From assembly GCA_020055645.1 (NCBI GenBank), contig CM034546.1:5394001-5458000 (forward strand): 64,000 nt of DNA. Reading direction: 5' to 3'. This DNA comes from Tomocerus qinae. Lineage: Eukaryota; Arthropoda; Collembola; Entomobryomorpha; Tomoceridae. The position numbers and the translations under genes were made by a program. Under the pieces are notes generated by a model. The model worked only from the letters and a program-made list of their open reading frames with translations. It ran no database searches and was not told the origin of the DNA. Positions 817 to 54,619 of the stretch are shown here, piece by piece; position 1 is the first letter of the stretch, and the number at the start of each line of letters is the position of its first letter.

Positions 817-3800
817 CTACGTTTTCTGTGCAAGTATTACAATAACAAATAACCAGAAAAGGTTAGTCTAACAGAACATTTGCAGAATGCTACAATACTG
901 ACTAGTAACTTAGTAAATTTCACATATTCAAAGAAATAAAGACTTACTTCCGAAGATGATAATGACAAAAGACCTTGAAAAAACTCAGACAGATGTGAAA
1001 ACGTGGGTCTTTTCCTTGGATCGTCCAACCAGCATTGCTGAAGAATAACATATCTGCATAAAGTATTTGCGTTTCATATTAATTGTTATACGGAAATAAT
1101 ATAAAACATTTTAAAGGTGAAAATACTTCGTTTTTGTGTACATTCTTTTGAGAGTACATTCTTTAACAGATATAAAATTAAAAAATCGCATTCCTGATCA
1201 TCAACCATTGCATGGCTAAAGTAATTTGCATTTTTGTGGTACTATAATAATAATTTTCCTAACTAACAGTAGATGTTCAAAGCATCAAATTTGAACTCAA
1301 GCAGAACAATAGCTAGTATAGAATGGATAGGGAAACGAGACTACGTACATTGCAGTAGTGGAGTAGTCGGGTTTTAACAAACGAAGTCCCTCTTTTAATT
1401 TATTTGGAAAATCTAAGCTCCAAGATATTCCTCCATATGGGACTTCGCCCAAAGTAAATATTTCCCAGACAGTGACTCCAAATGCCCAAACGTCCGTTTT
1501 AGAAGAAAATTCCATATCCTTTAGGGATTCCACTGCCAACCATCGCCATGGTAGAGGTTCCTACCGAAATAATTAAAATCCTTTTATTTATTTTAGATTA
1601 CAATAACTAAACAAGTAAAACATTTGCAGAAAACAATATTTGTTTTTATTATATTACTATATGATCATTTAATGTGTACTCATAAATTAACGTTTCCATT
1701 AAGACATTCAAATAAGAAAACAAAGCGCACCTGTGACTTTTTGACATAATTTGTGTATTGGTAAAGTTTTCTAGACAGTCCAAAATCGGTAACTTTAATC
1801 CACGATTTATCACACAAAAGTATATTCCTTGTAGCCAAATCTCCGTGAATGACATTTTTACTTGATAAAAACATCATCGCATTTGCAGTTTGGAAGGACC
1901 AATTTATTAGATCTGTTATAGTTAGAATATTTCCTACGTCTGTGCTTGCGTGAGTGTTGCAATATCGCTTTTCACTGTAAATAGATGTAGATGAATGTTA
2001 GCACTTTATGAATTCGTTCAAATTACTTAAATTTTATGATTTTAAATTATTTGAAGTACTCCTCTTTAGCAATAAAGTATGTTCGATTCTTCCGCATGTA
2101 ATTTTCTACACTTCCCAAAGAACACAATTCCACAAACATGTAAACCAAACCTGTAAATACATTTAAGAAAACAATCCATTACTTCCTGTGAGTGTTTAAC
2201 TGAAAATCTATTGATGATATATTTATCAATAATTAAGATAAGTTACCTTTTGAAAGGCTTTGAGTATGTGCTCCGATTAAAGTTGGAATGTGAGGATGCT
2301 CTCCAATATAAATCATCAACTTTAATTCTGATAGTAATGATCGGACATGATCTTTTCTTGCAAGCTTCGAGACAGTTTTCACTGCCACTTGTTGGTTATT
2401 TACTATTCCTTTGTAAACAATGCCAAATTGGCCACTGCCCAGAATGTTATCTTTGTCTAAAAATAGTATTTAATGTCATGAATTTCATCTTCCATGAAAG
2501 TTTAGTTGAAAACTGAATTACCAAAAGTAAAATCTGCTTCTGCCAACTCATACTTTTTATCGTATGGAATATTTGGGATGTATTCTGAGTCATCCTTTGG
2601 TTTATGTTCATTGCCGGATGTGTCTCCAATGAAAAAGAGATCTATTTCTTCTTTGGGCATAAATATCTCCTGTAAAAGTGAATTTAATATTTAGCTTTTA
2701 CTTTACGACGAAAATAATTTTCGCGTAATAAATCATTACAAATTTTACCTTATTACGACGTTGAAGAAAATAATAAAAGATAAAGATGGCAACAGACATG
2801 GCACTTGAAATATTTCGCTTGAAATAAATAGGTGAAATTTTTGAAATATTTCGCGAAATATTTCACTTGTGCTTTCCTTGAAAAATGAAATATTTGAAAT
2901 AAATGAAATAAATAGGGTACATGGCATTTATTTCAATTTATTTCAATTTATTTCAAGTGAAATAAATTAACTGCGCATGTCTATACACATGCGCGTTTAA
3001 TTTATTTCATTTATTTCAAAAATTTCATTTATTTCATTTTTCGCGAAATATTTCAAATATTTCACTTTTCAAGAAATATTTCCTGAAAAATGAAATAAAT
3101 GCCATGTCTGGATGGCAACGATAAACAACAAGACAGAAATTGATACAGGAAGACCGATTAGTAATCCATAGGAACTTTTATGTGATGCTTCTGATGTTGC
3201 TTTTTCAAGTATCCGAACGTAAACCGTTTTGCTGAAGGTGCCTAACTCGTTTGATGCAGTACATGTGTAGTTAGTCTCATGAATTTTACTTATTTTAGGA
3301 AACGAAAGAGAAATTAATCCATTGGAAACTTTTTTGGTTGTGCCCCTCTCAATAGGAATCTAATCATGCAATTAAATAGAATAATATTTTGAAAATTTGA
3401 GCATGAATATCTTTTAAATCTTTTTAACGTTTATTTTTCGCATAAATTATTTATTAAGTCTTACAGAGCTGTTCAGTTTGTCATGGAGCGTCCAATTCAT
3501 TGCAGGGATTGGGATTCCATCACTTTTACAGTTAATACTTCGTCCCATATCGTTTAAAATAAACACAGGGTGGGTATTTTCAATTTGCACAATTGACTTA
3601 ATTCTGTCTGTTGGTTTAACACTTTTATTAAATTCAGAAACATATAAAAGTTTTGACTTAAAGTGTTCTAAATAAATATTATTACTTTACCAACAACGTC
3701 AACGTTTTTTGTAATATTCATTGCATCTAATTTGCGCAAATCATAATTCCAGAATGAAACGCTACAAGCTACTCTTTTAACTTGACTGCTTGTTAAGTTG

Positions 3801-6800: not shown

Positions 6801-9176
6801 CCCACCAATTTTCTTCACTCTAAATAATTATCCCCATTTTTCTACACATTCCTTTCCATGACCAAAATATATTTTTATTAGCTCCACACCATTGCCACTC
6901 CTCTAAAAAAATATAAACTTCACGTAGTTCCATTTCCCACCCAAATCCCTCCCACAACCCAAAAAATATGTTTATTAGCTCCACGTAGTCTCCACTTCCC
7001 AACCCATTCTCCTCCCACAAAGCAAAAAAAGTTTTTTATTAGCTCCACGTAATCTCCACTTCCCAACCCATCCCCCTCCCACAAAGCAAAAAAGGTTTTT
7101 TATTAGCTCCACGTAGTATCCACTTCCCCACCCATCCCTCTCCCACAAAGCAAAAAAAGTTTTTTATTAGCTCCACGTAATCTCCACTTCCCAACCCATC
7201 CCCCTCCCATAAAGCAAAAAAAGTTTTTTATTAGCTCCACGTAGTCTCCACTTCCCCACCCATCCCTCTCCCACAAAGCAAAAAAAGTTTTTTATTAGCT
7301 CAACATAGTCTCCACCTCACCACCCACCTCTCTCCCACAAAGCAAAAAAAGTTTTTTTATTAGATCCACGTAGTCTCCACTTCCCCACCCATTCTCCTCC
7401 CACAAAGCAAAGAAAGTTTTTTATTAGATCCACGTAGTCTCCACTTCCCCACCCATTCTCCTCCCACAAAGGAAAAAAAGTTTTTTATTAGCTCCACGTA
7501 GTCTCCACTTCCCCACCCATTCTCCTCCCACAAAGCAAAAAAAGTTTTTTTATTAGCTCCACATAGTCTCCACTTCCCCACCCATTCTCCTCCCACAAAG
7601 CAAAAAAAGTTTTTTTATTAGCTCCACATAGTCTCCACTTCCCCACCCATTCTCCTCCCACAAAGTAAAAAAGTTTTTTTATTAGCTCCACATAGTCTCC
7701 ACTTCCCCACTCATTCTCCTCCCACAAAGCAAAAAAAGTTTTTTTATTAGCTCCACGTAGTCTCCACTTCCCCACCCATTCTCCTCCCACAAAGCAAAAA
7801 AAGTTTTTTATTAGCTCCACGTAGTCTCCACTTCCCCACCCATTCTCCTCCCACAAAGCAAAAAAAGTTTTTTTATTAGCTCCACATAGTCTCCATTTCC
7901 CCACCCATCCCCCTCCCACAAAGCAAAAAAAGTTTTTTTATTAGCTCCACATAGTCTCCACTTCCCCACCCATCCCCCTCCCACAAAGCAAAAAAAGTTT
8001 TTTTATTAGCTCCACATAGTCTCCACTTCCCCACCCATCCCCCTCCCACAAAGCAAAAAAAGTTTTTTTATTAGCTCCACATAGTCTCCACTTCCCCACC
8101 CATCCCCCTCCCACAAAGCAAAAAAAGTTTTTTTTTGGCTCCACATAGTCTCCACTTCCCCACCCATCCCCCTCCCACAAAGCAAAAAAAGTTTTTTATT
8201 AGCTCCAAGTAGTCTCTACTTCCCCACCCATCCTTCTTCCACAATGGAAAAAAGTTTTTTTTAGCTCCACGTAATCTCCACTTCCCCACCCATAACCCGC
8301 CCCATAACAAAAATAATTTTTTTATCAACCCAGTTGTACAACATTTGCGTAATTTAATATATAGAGCTTACACCTCTAACTGAGGCCTTAAGTGCACATT
8401 TCTCATGTTGTAGGAGAATATGAGATATGATACAGCTGCCATCTCTTGTTCTGTTCTGTTATTTACTTGCTCGCCTCGGTCTATTCACTGCATTGTTGCA
8501 TTTCTTCCAATCCCAATAGCCTGTATCTCCCAACCAACAACCTTCCTTTATTACTACGCACACATTGCTGCTATATCTACAGCCCTCTCCTCCTCCAAAC
8601 TCGCGCATGATCAGAAGGCAAAAGGCTTCCGCAAAACCACAATTTAATATATGTGATGTACCAAAACGCCATTGTAGTCCACATCAAGAGCAAATGGAGC
8701 TGAACATTCAAAGGAAATATAGTCATCTATAAAACAAAAAAAAATTTTTAGTCTGACAACTACATTGTTTATTGCATTAATTCAAACATTAATTTTTATT
8801 TATTCATTGAAAATAAATAATAATTCGAGTTTAGATGCTTTAGAGTTTAGACTGTAGTCTCACTTGGTGTTATGGGGGATATGACGAAAATATTTCCAGG
8901 AATGCAGTTTTCAATTATTTTTGGATCTATTCTAACCGTACAACTGACACTGTTGATATTGCTAGTATAATTGCTTTTCAACTTGAATCTAGCTTTGATG
9001 TCTGTAATGCCATGAATTATAACGAAAGTAATGGAGTATTGGCTACAGCTGAGTGGAACCTTATTCTCACTCTGAGGAGGACGAAAGATATTTGTCAACT
9101 TGTTTCCGTCTATTTTTTGAACAAGAATTACCTGAATCAAAAATGTCCAAATACAAACAGCCACACACGAACTCAT
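817..9176 (-). CDS. Ig-domain receptor tyrosine kinase 1 (RTK1), multi-exon; membrane exon interrupted
   Basis: Single-pass receptor tyrosine kinase with Ig-like repeats, of the VEGFR/PDGFR-like type. Exons read from GT-AG sites (high to low): signal-peptide exon ending near 8847; ~8727-8650; ~5605-5430; ~5350-5200; ~5120-4935; ~4835-4645; ~4490-4270; ~4229-4007; ~3857-3690; 3667-3465; 3359-2749 (last Ig plus membrane helix); 2669-2522; 2456-2247; 2150-2060; 1974-1731; 1560-1349; 1053-948; possibly a 9-nt last exon 825-817. Visible motifs: [10 protein letters not shown] in the last Ig domain, glycine loop [15 protein letters not shown] lysine, catalytic loop HGDLATRN (usual HRD), TDFGLS, and [16 protein letters not shown]. 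The kinase looks competent. The membrane exon carries a 318-bp MITE that introduces stops, so this allele cannot make a full receptor unless the MITE is spliced out. Ectodomain exon limits are approximate. The minisatellite lies in the intron between about 5610 and 8650. Confidence 0.75.
2793..3110. mobile_element. hAT-like MITE inside the RTK1 membrane exon
   Basis: The 318-bp element has terminal inverted repeats CAGACATGGCA / TGCCATGTCTG and is flanked by an exact 8-bp direct repeat GATGGCAA (2785-2792 and 3111-3118). An 8-bp duplication with CAG...CTG ends is the hAT signature. The interior is full of alternating GAAATATTTC and GAAATAAAT motifs and has no coding capacity. Dropping the element plus one target copy rejoins a clean hydrophobic helix ([14 protein letters not shown] followed by QRRNK), so insertion was into coding DNA. 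A degenerate relative lies near 29985-30165. Confidence 0.85.
5737..5753. repeat. Short perfect hairpin at the edge of the minisatellite
   Basis: CCGTGAC-TTC-GTCACGG forms a 7-bp stem with a 3-nt loop in an RTK1 intron, just before the first degenerate minisatellite units. It may be the terminal hairpin of a transposon (Helitron-type ends carry such hairpins), but no CTRR terminus follows it. Confidence 0.4.
5880..8330. repeat. 64-65 bp minisatellite in an RTK1 intron
   Basis: Tandem units read roughly TTTTTTATTAGCTCCACGTA, then GTCTCCACTTCCCCACCC, then CTCCTCCCACAAAGCAAAAA. Adjacent unit starts at 7491, 7556 and 7621 give a 65-bp period. From about 6980 to 8320 there are some 20 well-matched units. 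From about 5880 to 6980 the same motif recurs in strongly diverged form. Open frames seen on the minus strand here (rich in [15 protein letters not shown]) are repeat artefacts, not genes. Confidence 0.9.
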
Positions 9177-14861: not shown

Positions 14862-15884
14862 TCAATGTTTACAAGTCAATCCAAACTTGTCAGAAATTCC
14901 CGAACGATCAGCAAAATTTAAGAAGGACATAAAAATTCCATGAGGATGTGGTATTCGTTCATCAATGTCTGGTATTAGTTCCCTACATTTGTCACTAATT
15001 TTGTTTGTGTTAATTCCACTTTCTAAATATTGGCGTAATTTGGGATGGGTCTTTGATGCCTCTGAATATGACAAATCCCCATCTCCCATATAATTATCCT
15101 TAAAAATAGTCAAAAAGCTGTTTGTTTCAATTTCTTGTTTGACTCTCTCTTCGTATTCCTTCATTTCTACAATTTTAACTTCATAACCCATTTGTTTAGC
15201 AACCAAAACAAAATCCTTGACATACATGGGAACTGGTTGAACAATATTGAAAACCCCAGTTGGGGCTTTGTCATTAAATATCAACGCAATTGTTAGTTTA
15301 CTGGCCACATCAACTGGAATTCCAAAACAACCGCCTTCTATATTTGCCATCATGCCGAATCGAATGGAAATAAGCAATTGATTAATTAAGGAGTTTGTGT
15401 TTCCCACGAAAAGTCCCGTCTCGCTGTGCCCCAAAAGACTCGAATATCTAACCACCGTACAAGGAATTCCTCTCTCGTTTGCCTGCCGTAATAACTTTTC
15501 GCAAACAAGCTTTGCAACCGAGTATCCCATTGTGAGATCGTCGGCATTATTCTCATCGTCTGGGAAATCTTCATAAATAAACCCTTCATCTGTTAGACGA
15601 TTTATAGACGAAAAAGAAGATGGGAATACGACGCGCTTTGTTTTGACATTGGCGGCAAATTTAATAATGTTAATGGTTCCTAGTACATCGACAGACCTTA
15701 TGTCCATTTTATTAACATTGTTGATGTGATATTTTTCTACATGATTCGCTTTTGCAGCAAGATGGATCACCATATCAGTTACTGTAGAAAGTTTTATATA
15801 GTCATTGACAGGTAGTCCTAGGTTTTCACTCGTAATATCCCCTACTACAATAGAAATATTATCCATATTGATACCATCTAACAA
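14862..15884 (-). CDS. PKS block: thioester reductase C-terminal part
   Basis: A 340-residue frame of the extended short-chain dehydrogenase fold typical of PKS/NRPS terminal reductases: VVGDITSENLGL near the start, HLAAKANHV, VLGTINIIKF, FPSSFSS with the catalytic Ser/Thr region, and the YxxxK pair as GYSVAK (about 15515-15530). It is in the same frame as the upstream block but separated from it by a TAA at 15885-15887. The frame ends naturally after FGLTCKH, giving the PKS 3' end. Reductive release of the ACP-bound chain with NADPH is the family role. Confidence 0.8.
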   Translation of the reverse strand: MLDGINMDNISIVVGDITSENLGLPVNDYIKLSTVTDMVIHLAAKANHVEKYHINNVNKMDIRSVDVLGTINIIKFAANVKTKRVVFPSSFSSINRLTDEGFIYEDFPDDENNADDLTMGYSVAKLVCEKLLRQANERGIPCTVVRYSSLLGHSETGLFVGNTNSLINQLLISIRFGMMANIEGGCFGIPVDVASKLTIALIFNDKAPTGVFNIVQPVPMYVKDFVLVAKQMGYEVKIVEMKEYEERVKQEIETNSFLTIFKDNYMGDGDLSYSEASKTHPKLRQYLESGINTNKISDKCRELIPDIDERIPHPHGIFMSFLNFADRSGISDKFGLTCKH

Positions 15885-17285
15885 TTAATGCTTTTTCAAA
15901 TTGGCTATTAATTTTTTGTGCGCTAGTTCTGACGACTTTCCTCTGATCAGGCAAAATACTTTTAATCCCTCTATTTGTGCTAAATTGTTTAACAGGTATG
16001 CACCAATGTGACCTGTTGAACCTGTTAACAATATGTTAGTTATTTTAGACTGTGGATCGTATTTAAATATGGCCTGAATTTCTTTCGATAACTTTGAATC
16101 CAGCTTTACTAATTCGTACATAGCCTCTAGTTTAAATTCAGTTTTCTCTTTGGTTTTTACTTGACCCTGAACACCATCTGTTTCCGCTATTAAAGCTTGC
16201 TCCACTAAATATTTGCCAAGTGAATTTATCGTTGGGTTGTCCATCATTGCCGTGACATTTAAAGTAATTCGTTTTCCTACAATACCTTGAAGTTTGTTTT
16301 TCATTTCGACGGCCATTAAAGAATCGAGACCCATTTCCTGGAATGTTTGGAATTCGTCAATTGCTTCTGAGTCTGGCAATTTTAACGTCTTTCTAATAAT
16401 GCCACTAATTTTAGATTTAATATAAGACTGCTTTTCATCAGAACTGAGTGGCTCAATGTCAGCCCAAAACTTATCTGACTGGATTGAAGTAGAAGCGGAT
16501 TCTGCAGATTCATTATTGTCTGATAATTCAGACAGTACATTTCCAATGGCAGAGTACTGTTTAAATTCTTCCAACTCAATTTGCAAAACGCCGACTTGAA
16601 GTAAATCAGGTCTACCCATAATAAATTTTAAAGATGCAATGCCCTGATTAGGAGTGAAAGGCTTGACGCCAAATAAACCTTCTTTTCCGTAGGCTGTATT
16701 AGAAGCAGCGCCGACTTCTGCCCATCCACCCCAATTTATTGTCAGAGCTAGAAGACCAATTGAATGTCGAAAACTAGCAAATGAATCTAGAAAAGCGTTA
16801 GCTGCTGCGTGATTGCTTTGTCCCATTGGACCGACCAAACCAGCCATTGATGAAAATAGAACAAAATGCTCTAAATGTAAATCTTTTCTTAACTTATGCA
16901 AATTGAGACATCCGGCAATTTTCGCATTGAAAACGGTTTCGTATTTCTCCCATGTTTGATTCATGTAGATTGCGTCAGAAATGACACCAGCAGAATGAAT
17001 CACACCTCTTAAAGCAGGAAGACGAAGATCGGAAGACAAAATCGTTTCAAATAGAGATTTGCACTGCTCCCAATTTCCAATGTCGACTTGGAATGAACGG
17101 ATTTTGCAACCTTTCGCTCTCAAGCTGTTCAATACTTGTGAGACAGCTTCACTTGGTGCCGATCTACCAACCAGAACTAGATACTTACATCCAGAATCAG
17201 ACATCCATTTCGCAACTTCAAGTCCTATTCCACCTAAGCCTCCAGTAACCAGATAAGTCGCATTATAGAGCTGAACATCAAATCC
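15885..17285 (-). CDS. PKS block: ketoreductase, acyl carrier protein, start of thioester reductase
   Basis: The KR begins with YLVTGGLGGIGLE (NADPH loop, about 17225-17265) and continues KYLVLVGRS. The catalytic segment reads FSSMAGLVGPMGQSNHAAAN, where the usual Tyr of NYAAAN is His (codon at 16809-16811), so ketoreduction is probably lost. The ACP follows with GLDSLMAVE; its phosphopantetheine serine is at about 16320-16322. The block then enters the TR with LLTGSTGHIGAYLL. Its first residues are in a different frame from the ER block because of a single-base break in the A run at 17286-17290. It ends at TAA 15885-15887 after ANLKKH. Confidence 0.85.
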   Translation of the reverse strand, partial: GFDVQLYNATYLVTGGLGGIGLEVAKWMSDSGCKYLVLVGRSAPSEAVSQVLNSLRAKGCKIRSFQVDIGNWEQCKSLFETILSSDLRLPALRGVIHSAGVISDAIYMNQTWEKYETVFNAKIAGCLNLHKLRKDLHLEHFVLFSSMAGLVGPMGQSNHAAANAFLDSFASFRHSIGLLALTINWGGWAEVGAASNTAYGKEGLFGVKPFTPNQGIASLKFIMGRPDLLQVGVLQIELEEFKQYSAIGNVLSELSDNNESAESASTSIQSDKFWADIEPLSSDEKQSYIKSKISGIIRKTLKLPDSEAIDEFQTFQEMGLDSLMAVEMKNKLQGIVGKRITLNVTAMMDNPTINSLGKYLVEQALIAETDGVQGQVKTKEKTEFKLEAMYELVKLDSKLSKEIQAIFKYDPQSKITNILLTGSTGHIGAYLLNNLAQIEGLKVFCLIRGKSSELAHKKLIANLKKH

Positions 17286-17286
17286 T

Positions 17287-18026
17287 TTTTAATATTTTGA
17301 TTTCCAGTTTCAATTATATCGGACATAGTGACAACAATCTTTCCAATGTGATTTGCTTTTAAAAAGTAATTTAGAGCATCTCTGATATTAACCACGTCAT
17401 ATCTAGAATAAGGCAAAGGTTTGTAATCCAGTTTGTTGTGACATTTTAATTGGAGCAATAAATTTGCCATTTCTGTATTTGTCAATATCTCTAAATCAAC
17501 GATTGTGTATTGAACATCGGGTCGCAATTCCAGAACTTCTTCTGGTTTCCAGATATTAACTTTCCCAATTTCCACAAAACGTGCATTTTGTGCACAAGCC
17601 TTGAGAGTTGTTTCTTTGAATCCGTGTCCAGTCAGAGAATTAAGAACCATGTCCACACCTCGTCCATTTGTGGCTCTAGCTATTTCATCTCCAAAAGTCA
17701 AATCTCGGGAATGGAATACATGCTCAATGCCCAAACTTCGAAGATAATTCCTCTTTCGATGAGATCCGGCGGTCGCTATTATTTTAGCTCCAATATGTTT
17801 AGCTATTTGAATGGAAAATAGTCCAACACCTCCAGAGGCAACATGAATTAAAATAGTTTCATCATTGTGCAAATGGGCTAGAGCCACCATGCAGTAAAAG
17901 GCGGTCATTAGAACGGAAGGAAGTGTTGCAGCATCTGTGAATGTCAATTCTTTTGGCTTATGTAAAATAACATCTTCGTGAGTTATGGTGTGACTAGCTA
18001 CACAACTATTAATTGAAATCCCATAT
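17287..18026 (-). CDS. PKS block: enoyl reductase C-terminal part
   Basis: It continues the medium-chain dehydrogenase ER after the foldback insertion: TDAATLPSVLMTAFY, NADPH-binding IHVASGGVGLFSIQIAKH, VFHSRDLTFGDEI, GVDMVLNSLTGHG, FVEIGKVNIW. The upstream edge reads in frame from the foldback target duplication (ATAT at 18023-18026) through GISINSCVASHTI. The downstream edge meets the homopolymer frame break near 17286, after which the KR continues in another frame. Confidence 0.85.
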
Positions 18027-18650
18027 CGTCCCTTAAGGATAGAATAAGCCTGTATCCACTTTCAGATTGGTACAGGAATAAGCCTACATCCATTTTTTGT
18101 TTGGCACAGGAAAAAGCCAAAATCCATTTTTTGTTTGGTACAGGAATAAGCCTAAATCCACTTTTCGTTTGGTGCAGGAAATAGCCTCTACCCTCTTGCA
18201 GCTTATAGGGGCGTATTGATACATGGTTAATATGGGGGCAGCGGAAATATTGAACTTTCATTCTTCCTTCCAGCCAGTTTAGTTTTATCCAATATCAAAA
18301 TCCGAATTTAAGTCATTAGAAGTTTTGTTTTTGTCTTACTGTGTAATTAGCTAAAATTTTATAATGTTTATGTACATTATAGCATGATATATTTCAAGTA
18401 TCAACATAAAAATAATAAATACTTCATTTCGTCGACTTGTTTATTCTTACGGTGCCCCGACAACTTTACGTAAGGCTGTAAGAGGATAGAGGCTATTTCC
18501 TGCACCAAACGAAAAGTGGATTTAGGCTTATTCCTGTACCAAACAAAAAATGGATTTTGGCTCTTTCCTGTGCCAAACAAAAAATGGATATAGGCTTATT
18601 CCTGTACCAATCTGAAAGTGGATACAGGCTTATTCTATCCTTAAGGGACG
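18027..18650. mobile_element. Foldback element with 4-bp target duplication, inserted in the PKS ER domain
   Basis: The 624-bp element has long inverted ends starting CGTCCCTTAAGGATAGAATA and is flanked by ATAT on both sides (18023-18026, 18651-18654). Each arm carries a tandem motif of about 34 bp around GTTTGGTACAGGAATAAGCC and GTTTGGCACAGGAAAAAGCC, mirrored in the other arm. A unique centre of about 200 bp has no coding capacity. Removing the element and one ATAT gives GAT GAA ATA TAT GGG ATT, a continuous DEIYGI in ER. A second copy is at 44398-45047. The superfamily is unresolved; a 4-bp A/T duplication occurs in several DNA transposon groups. Confidence 0.9.
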
Positions 18651-19425
18651 ATATATTTCATCCCCTACTTTATATTTAGTCACTTCAGATCCAATCTTGG
18701 AGACGATTCCTGAAAAGTCTGACCCAATTGTCTCTTTTAATGTGGTGTACATTGGTGGTTTGAGTATAACAAAAATATCTCTGAAATTCAGAGCAACGGC
18801 TTTCACTTTAACTTCTAAACAATTTGGGCTAAGCTTCTCCTCGTCCATCGCAGAGAAGCTAACATCATTAATTTTTTTTGACTTAGGAATGTCTACTGTA
18901 TAACGCCCTCTTGGAAGTGTTAATGGAGCTAATGCCTTTGGTAGTACTATGACCCTTGAAACAAATTTTTTCCTATTTCTAAAACAAACCGTAAACTCTT
19001 CTTTCTCAAAAATCTCAAAAAACATTTGTTGAGTATTGATTGAATTATCAGATTCATCAGGATCTAAATCAATAATTTTCGGTTGCAATTTTGAGACTTC
19101 GTTCACCATGCATTTTGCCATCCCACAAATGGCGGCATTAAACGGGCACATCGTCTTCTGGTTTTGAATGTAATACACACCTTTAGTAACAACCATGAAC
19201 TGTAAATTGTGATGAGCTATTTCTGAAATAAATTTAAATACATTTAATATGGATTTGTATGCCAATTGACTGTTTTTGTTGTTAATGTTGGTAGCTAGAC
19301 ACATTATACCATTAACATGGTATTTTTCTAACAACTCTCTAGTTACTAATTTAAAAGAGCTTTCATCAGTTAGGTCACAATGTACCACATGTTGATTACA
19401 GCTACACCGATTTTGGCAAATTGTT
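18651..19425 (-). CDS. PKS block: linker and enoyl reductase N-terminal part
   Basis: It starts in the inactive-looking KR-like linker that follows the methyltransferase in reducing PKSs (VVHCDLTDESSF, NGIMCLATN, FMVVTKGVYYI) and runs into the ER N-terminus (VKAVALNFRDIFVIL, TIGSDFSGIVSKIGSEVTKYKVGDEI). The frame stops inside the foldback element right after GDEIY. Its upstream junction with the methyltransferase block, near 19420, needs a one-base shift, and no intron of reasonable length fits there. Confidence 0.8.
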
Positions 19426-21345
19426 TTATATTAAGATTACGTCTTCACAAATGCCTAAAATTTTCTTTTGAACTTCAATGGACAAATCTGTCTCTTCACT
19501 GAATATTAACCAAGCCGGCTTTTTATGGTCTTTTATATTCAAAGCATTTACGATCAGTCCCGTATTTTCTGTCCCGTTTATAGCACGCGATGTTAAAACG
19601 ATAATAAATTCATTTGCGGAAGATACATTGGCTGCTTCAGTAAATCCCGATTCAATCAAAACTTTGTTCCATATTTGTGACGACACCATCGGGTGTCGAA
19701 ATCGTACATTGTAATCAGTAAATTTCCAATATCCTTCTAACGTTCCAAATATGAAGTCGAGGGGTCTGCTAGGACTAGTAATCTCCTCTAATACCATGAT
19801 ACCATGTGTACAGATAAGTTTACGAATGTTGGTCATAGATCTTTTCAAATCTCCAGTTGCGTGAATAACATTAGCAGCAACAACTACATCATAATGATGC
19901 GGACAAAATCCTTGAGACGAAGGATCTTTTTCGATATTTAACACCTTAAAATCTATTCCATTATATGCCGAAAACTTTTCTGTGGCTCCTTCAAAAAAGT
20001 GAGGAGAAACATCAGTGAATGTGTACCGAAATTGAATTTCCTCCTTTTTTAGAACCGCTAAAATTTCTTTCGTTGTGGCTCCGCTGCCAGCTCCTATTTC
20101 TATAATTCGAACAATAGAATCATCTTTTGTCGGATCTGATTTAAACTCCCTTAATGCTAATCCAAGAAATATACCCGCTCGCATATTGGCAACAACGCAT
20201 TCATTACTCTTTGTGTATAGATCTAATGGGTCCAAACCCTCCGTTCCGAATAAAGCAGACACAGCCGTCTTTTTACCGGTCAAAACATCCCACGTATAGG
20301 CCAAGCATTTTAAGAAAATTTCGAAACCTATGATTCGACCCACTGATGAACCTTCGGAGTGAAAATAAACGTTAACATCTGAAATCCCCTTTTCAAGTTT
20401 CTCAAGAGTAGGAAATTCCTTAATACATTTCCAGCTATCCATAAATCCAGATTCCTCGTTGATTTCGATACCGTAACCATCTTCACATAATATTTCGAAT
20501 AAACGTTTAACAAACATACGATGATCGGGATGGATTATATAATCTTGAAAAAAATTCTCTATGCAATAAACATTACCTTCTTTGGGTGAAAATCCGTTGA
20601 GTTTGAACATTTTCATTATACCTAATTGTACAACATATCTCCCTTTCACGGAACATTCCATATCAAACAAATGCATATGCTGTTCCATACTTACAGCAAG
20701 TGGTTCAAGGATATCGTGTGTGTCAACAATTTTCCTAACGTCTATTCGAGACTGGACAGGTCCGATTCGTTGCCTCCAAACCTCTTGGTACATTCCGGGT
20801 AACATGTTATTGTGGGCATTGATCACATTGAGGAAAGAACTGACAGAAGTCTTCAGCAGTCTAATACCCACCATAACTGCGAGTAAAGCATTATTGTCAT
20901 TGTACAGACCAACTGTCCCTTCAGATTTTTCATTCGTCCATTTTGCATGAGCAAATAAATTTTGCGACATTAGATCATTTACAAGATAAACTCGTGCAAT
21001 TCCAATTGGCAAATAAAGGTCAACGTTATCCTTGCCGATACTCAATCCAAACAATTGTACCATGGCGTCCAAAACTATTGGGTGATATACATATTCAGTT
21101 AAATTACCTGCTTTCATAGGCGCGGGAATTAAAGCTAGCGCTTCATTTTCGCCTACCCAAACTGATTGTATGCTTTGAAAAGTCTCGCCAAAAAATATTC
21201 CAATTTCTGGAGCCATTTTATAGAATTCTTTTGAATCTTGTTCAATAGGACAACGACTTTTAACTTCGGCCATTTCTTCAGGCAGATATGTTGTCTCAGA
21301 ATTGGTTTCTTCACCTTCCGAAAGATTTGTTTCAACCGAAATACA
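19426..21345 (-). CDS. PKS block: dehydratase C-terminal part and C-methyltransferase
   Basis: The DH second half carries HPIVLDAMVQLFGL (usual HPxxLDaxxQ with the second catalytic Asp). It is followed by a SAM-dependent methyltransferase with motif I IEIGAGSGATT (about 20090-20125), then YTFTDVSPHFF, HYDVVVAANVIHAT and LKRSMTNIRKLI. In highly reducing PKSs this domain adds alpha-methyl groups from SAM. The frame remains open some way further upstream (to 21465), but homology passes to the other frame at about 21345, marking a one-base break within the DH. Confidence 0.85.
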   Translation of the reverse strand, partial: CISVETNLSEGEETNSETTYLPEEMAEVKSRCPIEQDSKEFYKMAPEIGIFFGETFQSIQSVWVGENEALALIPAPMKAGNLTEYVYHPIVLDAMVQLFGLSIGKDNVDLYLPIGIARVYLVNDLMSQNLFAHAKWTNEKSEGTVGLYNDNNALLAVMVGIRLLKTSVSSFLNVINAHNNMLPGMYQEVWRQRIGPVQSRIDVRKIVDTHDILEPLAVSMEQHMHLFDMECSVKGRYVVQLGIMKMFKLNGFSPKEGNVYCIENFFQDYIIHPDHRMFVKRLFEILCEDGYGIEINEESGFMDSWKCIKEFPTLEKLEKGISDVNVYFHSEGSSVGRIIGFEIFLKCLAYTWDVLTGKKTAVSALFGTEGLDPLDLYTKSNECVVANMRAGIFLGLALREFKSDPTKDDSIVRIIEIGAGSGATTKEILAVLKKEEIQFRYTFTDVSPHFFEGATEKFSAYNGIDFKVLNIEKDPSSQGFCPHHYDVVVAANVIHATGDLKRSMTNIRKLICTHGIMVLEEITSPSRPLDFIFGTLEGYWKFTDYNVRFRHPMVSSQIWNKVLIESGFTEAANVSSANEFIIVLTSRAINGTENTGLIVNALNIKDHKKPAWLIFSEETDLSIEVQKKILGICEDVILI

Positions 21346-21746
21346 AAATATCGTTGAATGGCAAGATAAGTGAGTCGCTAATGGTGACGATCGCACTGGA
21401 GTACCGTTTCCAACCTTTTTTGTCATTATAACCATTAAGTTTTCTAAACATATACACCTTGACATGAAACGTACTAGTGTTATTTTTTACAGGAGATGCA
21501 ACTACTTGAATTTTGTATTTCTTTCCTTCCTCCATCTCTAATGGAGATTCCACAACAAAATCTTCTACAGTTAGTAAACCTACATCATCATCTTTGTTTT
21601 TACATAGAATATCTTTTCCTGCAGCCAAAATAATTTCTAAAAATCCGACACCCGGTAACACAGTGACATGTGCTACTTGGTGATCTTTAATATATTGCAA
21701 ATCTGTTAAACTCCAAGTGTGTTTATAAACATGATGGGATACATCT
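21346..21746 (-). CDS. PKS block: dehydratase N-terminal part
   Basis: It begins at the target duplication with VSHHVYKHTWSLTDL, then the first DH catalytic motif DHQVAHVTVLPGVGFLE. This has the active-site His and the P, but the usual Gly after V is replaced. It continues through ILAAGKDIL and the hot-dog fold (VEDFVVESPLEM), and breaks frame at about 21345. Its first codons abut the 2.3-kb insertion. An apparent AG acceptor at this edge is a coincidence: joining it to available GT donors gives the wrong frame. Confidence 0.8.
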
Positions 21747-24045
21747 AAAAAAAAAATTCTAAAATCAATAATAATTATTATTATTATTATTTATTGGCTT
21801 CTTTCAAGACGATGTGACCTTTGGTCTTTACGTCCTATACAGTGTTTTTTAACAATGCATGATGATGACAATTTTGGTATACATTACATTAACAGCAAAA
21901 AATTGCATAAAAAAGGCTACTAATATAATATATGGTTTGGAGTTGGGTTGAGGCATGTAGATGAATAGCGTACTGCACAATAAAAACTAACGGTACGTAA
22001 TAAAATGTTACATAATGTTGAATATTACATATATCATAATCGGACGTTTTGAATCTTTTACATTTTAACTCTTTAAAATGACATACATTTAGGATTTTTA
22101 AAATGACTTACATTTTGGATCTTTAAAATGACTTACATTTTGACTCTTTAAACTGACTTACATTTTGACTCTTTAAAATGACTCTTTAAAATGACTTACA
22201 TTTTGACTCTTTAGAATGACTTAAATTTAGTCTCTTAAAAATGACTTACACTTTGACTCTTTATGACTTACATTTTGACTCTTTATGACTTACATTTTGA
22301 CTCTTTATGACTTACATTTTGACTCTTTAAAATGACTAACATTTTGACTCTTTAAAATGACTCTTTAAAATGACTTACATTTTGACTCTTTAAAATGACT
22401 CTTTTAAAATGACTTACATTTTGACTCTTTAAAATGACTCTTTAAAATAACTTACATTTTAACTCTTTAGAATGACTTAAATTTTAACTCTTTAAAATGA
22501 CATACATTTAGGATTTTTAAAATGACTTACATTTTGGATCTTTAAAATGACTTACATTTTGACTCCTTTAAATGACATAAATTTCGACTCTTTAAAATGA
22601 CATACATTTTGACTCTTTAAAATGACATACATTTTGACTCTTTAAAATGACATACATTTTGACTCTTTAAAATGACATACATTTTGACTCTTTAAAATGA
22701 CATACATTTTGACTCTTTAAAATGACATACATTTTGACTCTTTAAAATGACATACATTTTGACTCTTTAAAATGACATACATTTTGACTCTTTAAAATGA
22801 CATACATTTTGACTCTTTAAAATGACATACATTTTGACTCTTTAAAATGACATACATTTTGACTCTTTAAAATGACATACATTTTGACTCTTTAAAATGA
22901 CATACATTTTGACTCTTTAAAATGACATACATTTTGACTCTTTAAAATGACATACATTTTGACTCTTTAAAATGACATACATTTTGACTCTTTAAAATGA
23001 CATACATTTTGACTCTTTAAAATGACATACATTTTGACTCTTTAAAATGACATACATTTTGACTCTTTAAAATGACATACATTTTGACTCTTTAAAATGA
23101 CATACATTTTGACTCTTTAAAATGACATACATTTTGACTCTTTAAAATGACATACATTTTGACTCTTTAAAATGACATACATTTTGACTCTTTAAAATGA
23201 CATACATTTTGACTCTTTAAAATGACATACATTTTGACTCTTTAAAATGATATACATTTTGACTATTTAAAATGACATACATTTTTACTCTTTAAATTGA
23301 CAAACGTTTTGACTCTTTTAAGTGACTTACATTTTAACTCTTTAAATTGACATACATTTTGGATTTTTAAAATGACAAACATTTTGGCTCTTTAAACTGA
23401 CTTCGTTTTTAACTCTTTAAAATGACTCTTTAAAATGACTTACGTTTTGATTCTTTAAAATGACTTACATTTTGACTTTTTTAAATGACTTACATTTTGA
23501 CTTTTTAAAATGACTTACATTTTGACTCTTTAAACTGGCATAGGTTGCATTTTACGGTTTATAAACTGGTGTTACATTTTGACATTTAAAATGCAGATTT
23601 GCTTTCCACGGTGTATAATTTATTTCGTTCTCACGACTTCCAATGTTCTGGTGTCAGCAATTCCGGTGTCCTTGTACGGAATATAATCTCGTCTTGTGTT
23701 ATTTATATCTTGTAAGTAAGGTTTGCATTGCACTTGCACTTGTTGTTCACATGATAGATTTGTCTGGAGTAGGTTTTTTGCTTATGTAATGATGAGCTGT
23801 CGTTTCCGTTACAATAAATGTATAAATTTATATTTAATTAAATAGAAATCTAACAAAATTTATCATTTTCACAAAACTAACAAGAGAAAGACTGTTTATA
23901 CTATATGATGTTATAGAGTATTAAATTGCGAATAAAATGATATAAATAAATACCAATTAAGTTTAGTTTTAATACTAGAAATAGCCAATAATTGAAGAGA
24001 GTAGTAAAATAGATGTTTGCAGTCACACTGCCTCAACCCAACTCC
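21747..24045. mobile_element. 2.3-kb insertion at the PKS AT/DH junction with 14-bp target duplication
   Basis: It is bounded by exact direct repeats GATGGGATACATCT (21733-21746 and 24046-24059). One copy plus the flanks reads through as MTLADVSHHVYKHTWSLTDL, which is the normal spacer before the DH. Inside are an A10 run next to the left repeat, an ATT/TTA microsatellite at about 21768-21790, an inverted 17-mer (GGAGTTGGGTTGAGGCA at ~21938; complement ending at 24045) and the 25-bp minisatellite. No open reading frame was seen. The 14-bp duplication suggests target-primed retroposition, but the tail orientation is atypical, so the class is open. Confidence 0.8.
22049..23560. repeat. 25-bp minisatellite within the insertion
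   Basis: The unit is AAAATGACATACATTTTGAC plus TCTTT. About 26 essentially identical units run from roughly 22600 to 23255. Diverged units with varied lengths (TGACTTACATTTTGACTC, TGACTCTTTAAAATGACT) flank both sides. The unit contains an AAAATG...CATTTT inverted pair. It is not a CRISPR array: repeats abut with no unique spacers. Confidence 0.95.
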
Positions 24046-24059
24046 GATGGGATACATCT

Positions 24060-24995
24060 GCTAGTGTCATTTTTTTACCGAGGCGAGGAGAGGATGGATT
24101 ATCTTTTTTGTTCCGTCAGTATATACCTCTGTCCAATATTTTTGTCTCTGAAAAGGATAAGTTGGCAATTGTAACCTTTTCCGTGACCATGGTTTATCTA
24201 AAGATTCCCAATTAATATTTATTCCGTTTGTGTATAATGTTCCCATGCTGCTCAAGATAGTTTCCCAGTCGTCCTTATTTCGTTTTAAAGAAGGAACCCA
24301 CAGTTCGTGTCCAGAAGTATTTAAGTTATTCATTCCTAATGCCAACAATACAGGATGTGCTCCAATTTCCACAAAAACGTTGTAGCCTAAATCCCTTAAT
24401 GTGCACACGCCCTTTTGGAAATTGACTGATTCCCTTGCATGTCGTACCCAATAACTTCCATCCTCCATCTCGTTGCTAGACAGATATCCACCTGTAGTTC
24501 CTGATACGTAAAGGCATTTCGGAGATTGGTAAGACAATTTACTTGTAAATTTTCCAAATTCGTTCATAATTTTGTCCATATCTCGAGAGTGAAAAGCATG
24601 AGAAGCTGCGAGAACCTGAATTTTCATTTTATTAGTTTCACAAAACATTTTAAACGTTTCAATTGAACTTTTCCCGCCAGCTACTACCACTTCTTCCTCG
24701 GAATTGATAACAGCTATGTCCAACCACATATCTGAGTGGACACTTAAAAATTCCGAAATTAGTTTAGACACTTTTTCCTTTGGTAAACGAACAGCAATCA
24801 TTCCACCTGGTGGGAGACTCTGAATTAGTCTACTTCTTTCGGTAAGCAAAGTTAAAGCATCTTCTAGACTAACTATCTTAGCAGCCACCGCAGCAGCAAA
24901 TTCACCGACACTGTGCCCTAGAACGGCATCAGGAACAATGCCTACACTTTCCCACAATTTTAAAAGACCGTATTCAACCGCAAATATGGAAAGTT
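24060..24995 (-). CDS. PKS block: acyltransferase main part
   Basis: The true frame starts upstream of the first ATG with LSIFAVEYGLLKLWESVGI, typical of AT domains, and continues to the nucleophile elbow GHSVGE (Ser at about 24910-24912), the arginine segment PPGGMIAVRLP, ASHAFHSRDMDKIM (catalytic His region) and SYWVRHARESVNF. The docking tail PTYPFQRQKYW and HPLL mark the AT/DH boundary. The AHAFHS-type motif near position 200 usually marks methylmalonyl/malonyl choice; here AFHS suggests malonyl-CoA. A seven-A run near 24077 puts a TGA just before the target duplication; eight As would read through. Confidence 0.85.
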
Positions 24996-26834
24996 GGCTA
25001 CAAACTGATCTAATGAATTATCAACTGAGTCGCTCCACAAAGCATCTTTCAATGAAATGCCAATATTATTTTTAATAATATTCTCACACTCACTAAACGC
25101 TAGACTAAATACATAATTGGACTGGAAAAGAGACTTTGCCATGCCTGCATATTGTGAGCCTTGTCCTGTGAAAAGAAAAGCAACTTTGGGTATATCATTA
25201 AGTGTCGCTGGAATATGTACATCACTTTCTAAAGCTTTCTTAAAATCAGCCACAAACTTTCCAATAACTGCTAGACGGTGCTTGTGATGTGCCCGTCCTG
25301 TACTACAGGTGTGAGTAAGGTCACTGATACTAACTGACGGGTATTTGTTCAAATACTTACCATAAAGGTTGGCCAAATCTTTGAGAGCATTTTCTGATTT
25401 TGCAGAAAGCGTTAGAATATAATGTGACTTTTCAGACTCTAGAACATTTAGTTCTAAAGTGTGATTTTCTATATCACATGGAGGTTCCTCGACAACGACA
25501 TGCACGTTGGTTCCACTTATTCCAAATGAACTCACACCTGCAATTCGAGTTCTTTCAGAATTTTTTAACCATGGTGTAGGGTCAAGTGGAATTATAGCTG
25601 GAACAATGTCCAGATCAATACTCGGATTTAGTTTAGTGAAATTCCTATGCGGAGGAATCTCTTCATGCTCCATTGCCAGAATGACCTTTATTAGTCCAGC
25701 TAACCCAGCTGCTGATTCAGTGTGGCCTGTATTTGTTTTCACTGACCCAATTAAAAGTGGTTTTTCTCTTTCTCCAGTGTAGCCGGCGGAAATGGCGGCG
25801 AATTCAATGGGATCCCCAATGGGGGTTCCAGTTCCATGTGCCTCTACATAGTCAACATCTCCTGGCTTGACTCGTGCATTATTCAAAGCATGATTTATAG
25901 CAATTTGCTGACAGAGTTTACTCGGAGTTCCGAAATTGGAAGATGTTCCTTCGTTACTCACTGCTGTCCCTCTAATAATGCCCATAATCCTGTCACCATT
26001 TTTAATTGCATCTGGCAATCTTTTCAAAACAATTGCGGCCACTCCTTCTGCTCGGCCAAACCCATCCGCCGATTCATCGAAAGTTTTACAGTGACCATCT
26101 TTGGCCAGAATTGGAATATCCCCGAGTGGCAATGGCAGAATAATTATGTTAGCCCCCAACACCAAACCCAAATTGGTTTCCCTTTTCCTGAGACTGTCGC
26201 AAGCCAGGTGAAGAGCCACCATCGAAGAGGAACAGCCGCTCTCTGTAGCCACATTCGGTCCATTGAGACCCAAGAAGTAAGAAACTCTCGCGGATGTTGC
26301 AGAAAAGGCGTTTCCAAGGATCACATGGTGGAAATCTTCTGTAGTTGAGTTTTCGGCAATCACTCTTTCGTAGTCGTGTGTCCACACTCCAGTAAATACT
26401 CCCGTGTTACTCCCTTTCAAAGAATGTGGGTCGATAGCCGCGTTTTCCAACGCTTCCCAAGCCACTTCAGCCACAAGCCTCTGCTGTGGATCCATAAAAG
26501 CCGCCTCTCGAGGACTGATACCGAAAAACTTGGCATCGAACTCGTCTATCGGACATTTGAGGAAACCCGCTTTTGATTCTGTGTATTTGACATCGTTAAG
26601 CTGATTTTCGGAAAGTCTTTCTACAGGAACGGATCGGATTCCATCTCCTCCATTTTTTATCAGTTCCCAAAACTCGTCAATGTTGTTGGCCCCAGGAAAT
26701 CGACAGCTGTGTCCAATAATGGCAATGGACTCTTTATAATGGCCATTGTTCTTAAATCCAGTGGCATCTTTGCCGCATAAATTTTTATGTAATTCTGTTT
26801 CCAATGTCCAATTTCTCCATAAAGTATACACCTT
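24996..26834 (-). CDS. PKS block: ketosynthase and start of acyltransferase
   Basis: The KS starts with ESIAIIGHSCRFPG. Its catalytic triad is intact: Cys in ESGCSSSM (26232-26234; the usual TACSSSL is altered but Cys is kept), His in EAHGTGTPIGDP, and His in KTNTGHTESAAG. It ends with GISGTNVHVVVEEP. The KS-AT linker and AT start VAFLFTGQGSQYAGM follow. The exon begins at an AG acceptor at 26835-26836 (KVYTLWRNWTLE). The frame fails near 24995, where GTAGCCAAC should probably read GTAGCCCAAC. The KS performs decarboxylative condensation. Confidence 0.9.
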
Positions 26835-27350
26835 CTGTTGACATAGTTTATAAACAGATCAGGTGAAACCTTGAGTTAAAGGTTTAATTGGAATAGATTT
26901 TCTTACTGCTGCTATAACCTACTGGTATTGCATATTATCGTCCAAATAGATTAATTAAAGATAAATTTAACTAAGCTATAGTTTCCAAATACCAATATAG
27001 TTCAAAACCAAACTATTGAATTATACAGTATCATAAAAGAAAGTCTATGATATGAAAAGAGTTCAGCTATATATATAGTGAAATGAATTAATCTAGAATC
27101 AAATCTAATTACTTGTATTTAAAAAATCTTTCCTTCAATTAAATGTCATAAGTTTAATATTTATATATGTTTCAAATTATTTAATTAGTGCCATTACAGA
27201 TTGTTCTGCTACGTTCCGCTAGTTCACGTTAACTAGCAATAATTTCTAGAATAAGTGCATTAGATAAGAATTATGTTTACTTTGTAGGATTTATAAAAAT
27301 AATTTGAGTCCCGCATGCTCGTTATCATAAAAGTAACTACCTGAAATATG

Positions 27351-27470
27351 TCTGGAAACAAGCCATTCGTGAAAAATCCGTTCTTCTGAGAGCTATTCTC
27401 TGTATTTTCTAGGCCGGATAGAATTTTGATATTTAACACCTCCCTGGTAAACCTTACAGAATCATTAATT
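27351..27470 (-). CDS. Possible upstream PKS exon
   Basis: An open stretch (NDSVRFTREVLNIK ... GFFTNGLFPDIFQ) ends at a GT donor (27349-27350 on the complement) and joins in phase 0 to the KS exon starting at 26834. There is no ATG in it, so a further 5' exon or a different start is required. It is supported only by frame and splice sites, not by motif. Confidence 0.3.
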
Positions 27471-28530
27471 ACATATTATTATGCATTTACATACATAGAT
27501 TTTGTTGACTGACATTTTCACATATATTTATGTACAGTGAATTCGTACGATGTGTTTACGTGTTAAAACTTACATAAAATATTTATGTGTATCAAACTAT
27601 GATTGTATTACAGTACTTGTGGGGATATTTTCATTTATCAGTTAATTATTCAGTTACATGAAAAATTATAGATATACTATGAATAAAATATGCGTTCAAG
27701 ACACAGCCCACATAAAAAGGAGTCCATTGCCAATAATTAACGATAAGAAATAAGTATTTAAGCCATCGGGTGTATTAAGTAAATTTAAAAAATATTTGAT
27801 GGTCAATTCAGGAATCGAACCTTAGAATTTTTTGATAAACGTTCTACACATAATATCACAAAGTCGCAACGGACTATACAATTGTGTAATCAATTTTTGG
27901 CATGGTTCAATTAGATATGTTTTTATACATGTTTCAGGGCCGCAGCCGGGGGGGCAGCCCCCCCTCCGAAATTGAAGAAAAGAAAGGAATTTTTGCTTTA
28001 AAACCCAAAAATTTTTGATTATTTTTTGTCGCCCCCTCCCCCCGCTCGAAATTTTTTTCTGGCTGCGACCCTGACATGTTTGGTTGCTTACATTTCAGAA
28101 GAACTCCTTGAGATATAAAAATTGTAATTTTCAGACAGCTCTTCTTTTTTACTAATGTGAAAATGATCATTTAAGACCTCCGACACTGGAAAGTAAAAAG
28201 ATAATAACAATAATGGATCAGTTACATGCGCTCCACTGAATACATTAACCAGTGTCTGAAATATCTTTTACCACTTACCTAAGGTAAGTTGTTTTTAATA
28301 CGTTAAATATCATCACCGAAAAAGTAGTGGTAAGTGGTAAAAATATTCTAGTTTAAATTTCGTGCTTTTGAATAAAGCAAAATTACAGACAGAGAGTGTA
28401 TCCGTTCTAAGGTTTATCAAGCATCACAACAGGAACATGTCTTTTTATATCGTTAAAATTAAAATTAATAATATGGATACAATACGTGTATGCAAATTTG
28501 GATCAGTGTAAAGAAGGAGAGCAGACTTAC
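27471..28530. other. Region between the PKS 5' end and the last identified glycogenin-like exon
   Basis: It contains the small hAT-like MITE at 27935-28073 and a short inverted motif (TTTTACCACTTAC at ~28266; GTAAGTGGTAAAA at ~28331). The 3' exons of the glycogenin-like gene and the 5' end of the PKS should both lie here or just beyond; I could not identify them with confidence. Confidence 0.4.
27935..28073. mobile_element. 139-bp hAT-like MITE
   Basis: The ends are CAGGGCCGCAGCC and GGCTGCGACCCTG, with an exact 8-bp target duplication ACATGTTT on both sides (27927-27934, 28074-28081). The interior has G- and C-runs in an otherwise AT-rich region. It is non-autonomous and non-coding. Confidence 0.85.
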
Positions 28531-44397: not shown

Positions 44398-45047
44398 GGA
44401 TGGAAAAAGCCTCTATCCACTGTCAGATTGGTACAGGAATAAGCCTATATCCATTTTTTGTTTGGCACAGGAAAAAGCCAAAATCCATTTTTTGTTTGGT
44501 ACAGGAATAAGCCTAAATCCACTTTTCGTTTGGTACAGGAATAAGCCTATATCCAATTGTTGTTTGGTGCAGGAAATAGCCTTTATCCTCTTACAGCCTT
44601 ACGTAAAGTTGTCGGGGTACAGTAAGAATAAACAAGGCGACGAAATGAAGTATTTATTATTTTTATATTGATACTTGAAATATATCATGCTATAATGTAC
44701 AAAAACATTATGAAATTTAGCTAATTACACAATAAGACAAAAACAAAACTTTTAACGACTCAAATCCGGATTTTGATATTGGATAAAATTAAACTGGCTG
44801 GTAGGAAGAATGAAAGTTCAATATTTCCGCCGCCAATATTGACCATGTATCAATGCGCCCCTATAACTATACAAGAGGGTAGAGGCTATTTCCTGCACCA
44901 ACCAAACGAAAAGTGGATTTAGGCTTATTCCTGTACCAAACAAAAAATGGATTTTGGCCTTTTCCTGTGCCAAACAAAAAATGGATATAGGCTTATTCCT
45001 GTACCAATCTGAAAGTGGATAGAGGCTTTTTCCATCCTTAAGGGACG
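44398..45047. mobile_element. Foldback element, second copy
   Basis: Same family as 18027-18650: ends CGTCCCTTAAGGATGGAA / TCCATCCTTAAGGGACG, with 4-bp duplications ATTT (44394-44397, 45048-45051). The mirrored GTTTGGTACAGGAATAAGCC arrays are present. The unique centre is in the opposite orientation relative to the PKS copy. Confidence 0.9.
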
Positions 45048-49931: not shown

Positions 49932-49968
49932 GTAAAATAACTGCATTACTGCATGCAACAATTTTGAA

Positions 49969-54000: not shown

Positions 54001-54619
54001 TTTTTTGCAAAAAAAAATTAAAAATCAAACTCCGTAATGTGATAAATTTTTAAAACTTTCTCCTTATAATATTCATACTACAACACATTAATACAAAACG
54101 AAATTACATTATATATTCATATATAGCTTCATGGCATTTTTTATTATCGCGTTTAGATTTTATACAATAATAGAATGTGATAGTTTACAGACATAGAATA
54201 TTTGTATGGTCGTTGCAATGCTGCACTTACATTTTTAGAAACTAAAAATTGAAAGTAGTCCAGTTTGTGTTAATTACATTGCTCATATCCACCGATCAGC
54301 TATGAAAAATGTCTAAATAATTCAGAACAGCCTTCACAATGCAATACATTGTGGTGAAAGCCTTAACATTTCAATTGGATTAATATTATTAACTGAAATT
54401 CAAAAATTTCACCAACTTGAAATTGTAAACTACTGAAATACACTGAAAAGGCCATCCATAAATAATTTCTATTCAATGTTCAGCCAAATAAAACGTCTAT
54501 GTTTTAGATTTTATTTCCTAATTGGAAACGATAATGACGAATTTTTTGGCTTGCCTTAAATATTATTTTCTTATAAACGAAAATATAATTTATTCGTCGT
54601 ACGTAACAGAACTGCACAA
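54001..54619. other. Upstream region of IR-like gene 2
   Basis: No gene is seen. TATAAACG at about 54571 and CGTCGTACGT at about 54594, just before the ATG at 54620, are candidate core promoter features, the latter shared with the relic. Confidence 0.35.

Follow-up and report, generated by a model that had tools for sequence, protein, structure and literature searches.

Arthropods have been reported to possess few or no PKSs beyond FAS-like ones, and a few arthropod FAS-like PKSs are said to end in reductive domains (PMC10764717, in the part of the text available). The animal FAS-like PKSs described there, EcPKS1 and EcPKS2, are type I synthases of animals, as is the family presented here, and a protein of Folsomia candida (OXA62418.1) was scored in that source as a PKS rather than as FAS-like. 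F. candida is likewise a soil arthropod rich in type I PKS genes, with 30 clusters of this type reported; most genes of its biosynthetic clusters were described as horizontally acquired (PMC5490193, available part). We compared this species by description only; neither its domain order nor a homogenised KS core is given in the accessible text of that paper. KS or AT domains of bacterial assembly-line PKSs are homogenised by internal recombination (PMC4256081, accessible text), but this was described within bacterial gene clusters, whereas the similar pattern reported here concerns separate genes over 12 Mb of an animal chromosome, and the KS core only. A parallel expansion of PKS genes is known from Dictyostelium, and gene conversion is not mentioned in the accessible part of that description (PMC3188802).

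Against the earlier picture of arthropods, the single arthropod genome analysed here holds at least 43 PKS genes that run to a terminal thioester reductase (TR) in one frame. The fungal highly reducing PKS LovB has the order KS-AT-DH-cMT-ER-KR-ACP, the same as here, and mycocerosic acid synthase (MAS) is not known to have cMT or TR. We compared L019, an intact relative of the locus described below, with solved structures. The best matches for the whole protein were MAS (795 bits, over two stretches) and bacterial modular PKSs such as CurL (734 bits) and EryA, the third match reaching 693 bits, the latter two scores each from one stretch; scores to FAS (442 bits) and EcPKS1 (378 bits) were far lower than those to CurL and MAS. 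This ranking of similarity points away from membership in the animal FAS-like PKSs (AFPKs). LovB (PDB 7cpx) matched aa 26-968 of L019; in the KS it reached 269 bits against 405 for CurL (the first match reached 550 bits by adding up two KS stretches), and unlike LovB the family here ends in TR. MAS chains have 2124 residues, against 3000 for L019. The closest solved structure for TR was MxaA (122 bits).

A degenerate PKS-TR locus on the minus strand

The window is the whole stretch of DNA that was analysed (64,000 nucleotides, C1:5,394,001-5,458,000). The assembly comprises 334 Mb in 115 contigs, five of which make up 96% of it, and contig C1 is 140 Mb long. A Pfam search of the window gave the minus-strand order KS-AT-DH-cMT-(pseudo-KR)-ER-KR-ACP-TR, with the locus in pieces. 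A preliminary description of this DNA had proposed a PKS with KS, AT, DH, cMT, ER, KR, ACP and TR, and all eight domains were recovered in the proposed order, far above chance. The E-values were 3e-74 for ketoacyl-synt and 3e-43 for Acyl_transf_1 (KS, AT); 1.5e-16 for PKS_DH_N, 8e-21 for PS-DH and 1.4e-15 for Methyltransf_12 (DH, cMT); 1e-8 for ADH_N, 6e-20 for ADH_zinc_N and 7e-60 for KR (ER, KR); and 5e-10 for PP-binding and 3e-29 for NAD_binding_4 (ACP, TR). The features are, in window coordinates:

14862..27560, minus strand: degenerate PKS-TR locus, whole, including about 0.66 kb of 5' flank common to the three nearest paralogues
25638..26732, minus strand: KS domain (PF00109 and PF02801, Pfam; PF00109 at C1:5420007-5420732)
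25800..26519, minus strand: window copy of the apparently homogenised 720-bp KS tract, 99% to L019, 7 changes from the majority
24217..25178, minus strand: AT domain, motif HAFH present, frame break near 25,010 (Pfam and alignment)
21747..24045, minus strand: insert (i), a dispersed repeat at the AT/DH junction, absent from paralogues
20857..21739, minus strand: DH domain (PKS_DH_N, then PS-DH), frame break near 21,350 (Pfam and alignment)
19801..20103, minus strand: C-methyltransferase (cMT) core (Methyltransf_12, Pfam)
19038..19268, minus strand: structural pseudo-KR segment (Beta-ketacyl_N, 5.9e-06, just under the Pfam cut-off)
17330..18824, minus strand: ER domain (ADH_N, then ADH_zinc_N, Pfam), split by insert (ii)
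18027..18650, minus strand: insert (ii), splitting ER, absent from paralogues
16716..17261, minus strand: KR domain with a frame break near 17,260 and, like the rest of the family, with His at the position of the catalytic Tyr
16206..16412, minus strand: ACP (PP-binding, Pfam), GLDSL serine present
14862..16028, minus strand: thioester reductase (TR) domain (Pfam), in-frame TAA at 15,885-15,887

We take the HAFH motif of the AT to be of the malonyl type. The coding sequence of paralogues is matched between about 26,750 and about 14,860, and the DNA match to L019 continues to 14,504. The segment 26,900-27,560 is a 75-85% match to the 5' flank of the three nearest paralogues, and an end of the locus near 27,470 appears reasonable from these alignments. 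TIGR01746, the TR model, scored 189 bits in L019, under its cut-off of 213.

Disabling lesions of the window copy

The reference for lesions was L019, the best full-length match among 20 fetched paralogue regions, and three blocks were aligned separately. The broken frames with strong protein motifs that had been noticed before were found again. Compared with L019, the locus carries five internal frameshifting indels (near 25,010, 24,090, 21,350, 19,430 and 17,260, the fourth by the pseudo-KR segment), two in-frame stops (the DH-to-ER and ER-to-TR blocks having one each) and two inserts, which the closest intact paralogues fetched lack. Indel counts per block include block ends, so that a few are counted in intact paralogues also; the five are the internal ones only. 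No single open reading frame crosses the locus, whereas L019 and L020 do have one, of 3000 and 3015 aa, that reads through the corresponding break points; introns were rejected as the cause of the breaks on this ground. A stop inside TR was found in the window's match alone among the 91 TR matches scored (of 132 candidates). The indel near 24,090 adjoins a run of A.

Insert (i) is flanked by 14-bp target-site duplications (24,046-24,059 and 21,733-21,746) and contains a minisatellite of about 1.5 kb (22,058-23,542). Its unique part has 31 candidates in the genome, the best others being 99% identical over 424 of 483 bases. Since the closest other copies of this repeat family are nearly identical (98-99% alike), we conclude that it moved recently. 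Insert (ii) ends in perfect inverted repeats of 60 bp, carries subterminal tandem repeats of 34 bp and is bordered by ATAT at either end. This element was found at 40 or more genome places (among the best 40 of 222 candidates), with the closest other copy 96% identical and a second copy within the window, at about 44,400-45,033.

The five small indels alone could be sequencing error, the stops less easily and the two inserts hardly. Judged by its sequence, the window locus is a pseudogene. Intact paralogues on the one side and disabling lesions on the other mark it as a duplicated pseudogene. A retrocopy is excluded by the 5' flank, which was duplicated too; since the 5' flanks of the nearest paralogues match at 75-85%, the duplication took place at the DNA level.

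We counted 24 nonsynonymous and 21 synonymous private changes and 1 stop on the window branch, compared with 13 nonsynonymous and 20 synonymous for the nearest paralogue; the difference is small. The nonsynonymous excess is a weak signal, and in these counts the window branch still looks mostly constrained. Dating of the decay by codon position was tried and is weak, as most private changes seem to predate the loss. The loss had been described as recent, and the part of this that stands is decay which is probably recent, given the mostly constrained branch and the 98-99% likeness of the relatives of insert (i).

A large family of intact PKS-TR genes

We searched the genome for relatives of the locus. 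PF00109 (KS) had at least 127 matches (123 of 163 candidates scored), some of which are exon pieces and two of which lie on the small contig C100. TIGR01746 (TR) had at least 91 matches (91 of 132 candidates scored), most of them under the curated cut-off. A KS was present upstream of 83 of these 91, on the same strand and within 14 kb, and 43 of the 83 pairs lie in one uninterrupted frame of at least 2,800 aa. Another 39 pairs are in separate frames; 8 TR are without a listed KS and 44 KS without a listed TR. Many of the separate-frame pairs may be intron-containing genes, and others may be dead, for example L017, a subfamily-A copy whose frame is split in two. GT/AG-like edges were seen in L022 and L028, paralogues of another subfamily, and an acceptor in L018. 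Two further KS matches contain an internal stop (C1:62385183-62385911 and C1:72027210-72027941). These KS copies, at C1:62.39 and 72.03 Mb, and L017 are probably other dying copies.

Over KR-ACP-TR, the nearest relatives of the window (among the best 40 of 95 candidates) lie at C1:3,708,159 and 3,678,861 (93%) and at 4,134,873 (90%), and their frames span 3008, 3018 and 3008 aa. Between five sampled intact copies dN/dS was 0.11-0.18 in three blocks; therefore these copies are maintained, under purifying selection. The search for intact paralogues that the preliminary description had suggested was thus successful, and its picture of a rare enzyme lost by the lineage fails, as at least 43 genes with KS to TR in a single frame remain. 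The first reading, a rare animal enzyme being lost, was only half right.

We consider it very probable that the window locus belongs to a large native family of reducing type I PKSs with terminal thioester reductase and that it was disabled recently. The gene would descend, through segmental duplication, from relatives like the ones at C1:3.67-4.13 Mb and have remained in the pool whose KS core gene conversion may overwrite. Indels, stops and two insertions that resemble transposons would then have put it out of function. Taken by itself, the loss of a single copy from so large a family is nothing unusual; noteworthy are the number of intact members and their uniform KS core.

A KS tree had also been suggested, and we built it from 76 rows of this genome (all fetched) and the best 25 of 79 bacterial loci. 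Among the genome's own rows, 67 of 76, the window included, form one clade against the bacterial rows (support 100/100). Eight of the other nine belong to a modular PKS family and one has a very long branch. Places where long branches meet were flagged, the base of the 67-row clade among them. The modular family (L001-L008, at C1:34.00-34.03 Mb, C1:35.26-35.29 Mb and on C100) is separate, with KS domains about 7.6 kb apart, and a single open frame of L005 encodes ER-KR-ACP-KS-AT, as where one module follows another. By its domain layout this is a modular synthase of the bacterial style that sits on an animal chromosome. A stretch identical to L005 is also present on contig C100.

It is very unlikely that the window gene is functional, with introns or errors of assembly behind its breaks. 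In favour of this, introns seem to occur in another subfamily of this genome, and homopolymers are found close to some of the breaks; however, L019 and L020 read through every break point, and neither an insert with a 14-bp target-site duplication nor an inverted-repeat element with 60-bp arms is a sequencing error. We give hardly any credence to a chimeric contig, or to bacterial or fungal contamination, as the source of a PKS among animal genes, despite the KS being nearer to bacterial modular PKSs than to LovB among solved structures and the whole protein being nearer to them than to animal FAS. The contig is 140 Mb long and carries 25 places at 95% or more to the KS tract of L019 within 12.5 Mb, repeats of the host genome sit inside the PKS locus, paralogues of another subfamily have intron-like GT/AG edges, and the best bacterial KS found in a scan by two peptide patterns was 51% identical. 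The relatives of the tract on the same contig, together with a 5' flank common to three of them, make a chimera unlikely. With the best KS identity at 51% in that two-pattern scan, a recent bacterial transfer was not supported either; a transfer long ago may have taken place.

A uniform 720-bp tract in the KS domain

In subfamily A (n = 13 fetched), 12 of 720 columns were variable in coding nt 301-1020, compared with 361 of 720 in nt 1081-1800. In 66 pairs of 12 full-length genes, the mean difference was 0.23% inside this tract (maximum 0.83%) and 21% downstream of it (minimum 7.8%). Among all windows of 720 columns, the smallest number of variable columns was 10, while 2,000 column shuffles gave at least 274. 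Synonymous differences were 0.005-0.014 in two 100-codon windows of the tract and 0.28-0.68 in the others. Most pairs have their edges at similar positions (medians at nt 273 on the left and nt 1035 on the right, with modest spread), and at the right edge the mean pair difference climbs from 0.2% to 8-13% over some 100 bases.

The following places were found among the best 40 of 94 candidates. The identical 720-bp tract was present with full score at 12 genome places, spread over 5 Mb; 20 places were listed as 100% and 22 at 99% or more, window included. All 25 places with at least 95% to the tract of L019 lie on C1:0.40-12.50 Mb, the window among them. Copies at 40.8, 128.1 and 124.6 Mb were 91, 87 and 82% identical. 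L132, L145 and L146 are partial mosaics, of which the KS piece alone was read. In the window the tract has 7 changes (4 synonymous, 3 not), compared with 0-5 in the 13 others; this is one copy, and the number is as expected of a copy leaving the pool.

Uniform synonymous sites between divergent flanks, together with three mosaic members and a modest spread of the edges, are what gene conversion leaves, and from these patterns ectopic gene conversion appears to be the best reading of the uniform KS core. It is improbable that the near-identity reflects a constraint on the nucleotides themselves, by an overlapping element or an antisense frame. The tract edges are similar in most pairs, and an antisense frame of 197-200 aa overlaps the tract in the 13 fetched subfamily-A copies, both of which would suit such a constraint. 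Against it, L027, whose KS is 87% identical and lies outside the pool, has no uniform tract; its synonymous differences are not depleted there (pS 0.53-0.66), and none of its antisense frames reaches 150 aa; a uniform KS tract was not found in the second subfamily; and some members are mosaics. We saw no evidence that the 197-aa antisense frame is a gene. That similar reads were collapsed in assembly or polishing is a more remote explanation still. One assembly was examined, which leaves room for such an artefact, but polishing would have to rewrite 8-13% divergence at about 20 loci and yet spare the flanks.

For ectopic gene conversion we propose, tentatively and as a model that may well be wrong, that through it about 20 genes in one chromosome region retain one and the same 720-bp KS core as their AT, tailoring and release domains drift apart; duplicates would keep a working condensing core and explore new chemistry, and the window gene would have just left the pool. 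With this uniform core, gene conversion within a family of animal enzymes can be put to the test, and the dead window copy may serve as its natural clock. We found no earlier report of PKS gene conversion in an animal among the titles and abstract openings found in one open-access library.

Predicted chemistry of the intact members

Intact members are predicted to be iterative synthases. The KS would condense malonyl units, the cMT would add methyl groups from SAM, KR, DH and ER would reduce the chain, and its release by TR would yield an aldehyde or alcohol. The likely products are branched lipids set free by reduction, possibly of the kind found in the springtail cuticle.

At the catalytic-Tyr column of KR (L019 aa 2353), we found His in 21 of the genome's own matches and Tyr in 7. 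The first number agrees with a total of the window and the 20 regions fetched (L009-L028); the matches with Tyr are presumably those of the modular family. Full reduction is a prediction only, because His stands at this column in all members read. Bacterial KR matches have His there in 4 of 96, and one of the four, L041, is the bacterial KR that matches best (48%). Eight aligned paralogues show no variation at the presumed catalytic Ser and Lys, and we assume that these residues are the catalytic ones. Cofactor patterns of KS, AT, ER and KR were found in the open subfamily-A frames, and those of DH and TR missed several. The cMT motif pattern was present in 16 of the 19 longest frames able to hold it. 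It was not found in L022, L024 and L026, relatives outside the window's subfamily; methylation may therefore not be general.

A 2,4,6-trimethylhexadecyl ester is known from Anurida maritima, and its authors assigned it to the fatty-acid pathway and assumed its alcohol half to be a reduction product of the acid (PMC11321324, in the part available). The PKS-TR genes are candidates for such unexplained branched springtail lipids, this ester being one example, and the link of the family to cuticular lipids is a candidate one drawn by analogy with the literature.

Neighbourhood of the locus and further observations

The neighbours in the window are:

1297-1997, minus strand: tyrosine kinase exons (Pfam)
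58042-59231, minus strand: tyrosine kinase exons (Pfam)
49936-52341 and 54560-56974, plus strand: two single-exon ORFs of about 800 aa each, 57% identical

A weak Ig-like match was present at 3069-3359, as in receptor tyrosine kinases. The locus had been placed between animal receptor genes, and tyrosine kinase exons do lie on both sides. The ORFs of about 800 aa matched nothing in Pfam, and the one tried had no PDB match, so that they are putative receptors only. We take them to look like divergent ionotropic receptors. The predicted structure of such a protein (two-sequence model) had a mean pLDDT of 27.9 and was uninformative. A 64-bp tandem array of about 21 copies occupies window 6921-8325, with strong C-over-G skew (-0.62).

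Elsewhere in C1, a mitochondrial-type stretch lies inside the nuclear contig (L029, C1:36670928-36672268 with flanks). In it cox1 and cox2 are open under code 5, and nad2 seems to carry a frameshift. Its order is I-Q-M-nad2-W-C-Y-cox1-L(taa)-cox2-K-D-atp6, where nad2, cox2 and atp6 were named by eye and two other weak tRNA calls, both within nad2, were disregarded; we assume this order to be the pancrustacean arrangement. Together with the wealth of PKS genes reported for F. candida and the literature on soil arthropods, it makes a springtail the likely host. The stretch may be either a nuclear insertion or a misassembly. Decayed mitochondrial-type copies were also observed near C1:139 Mb.
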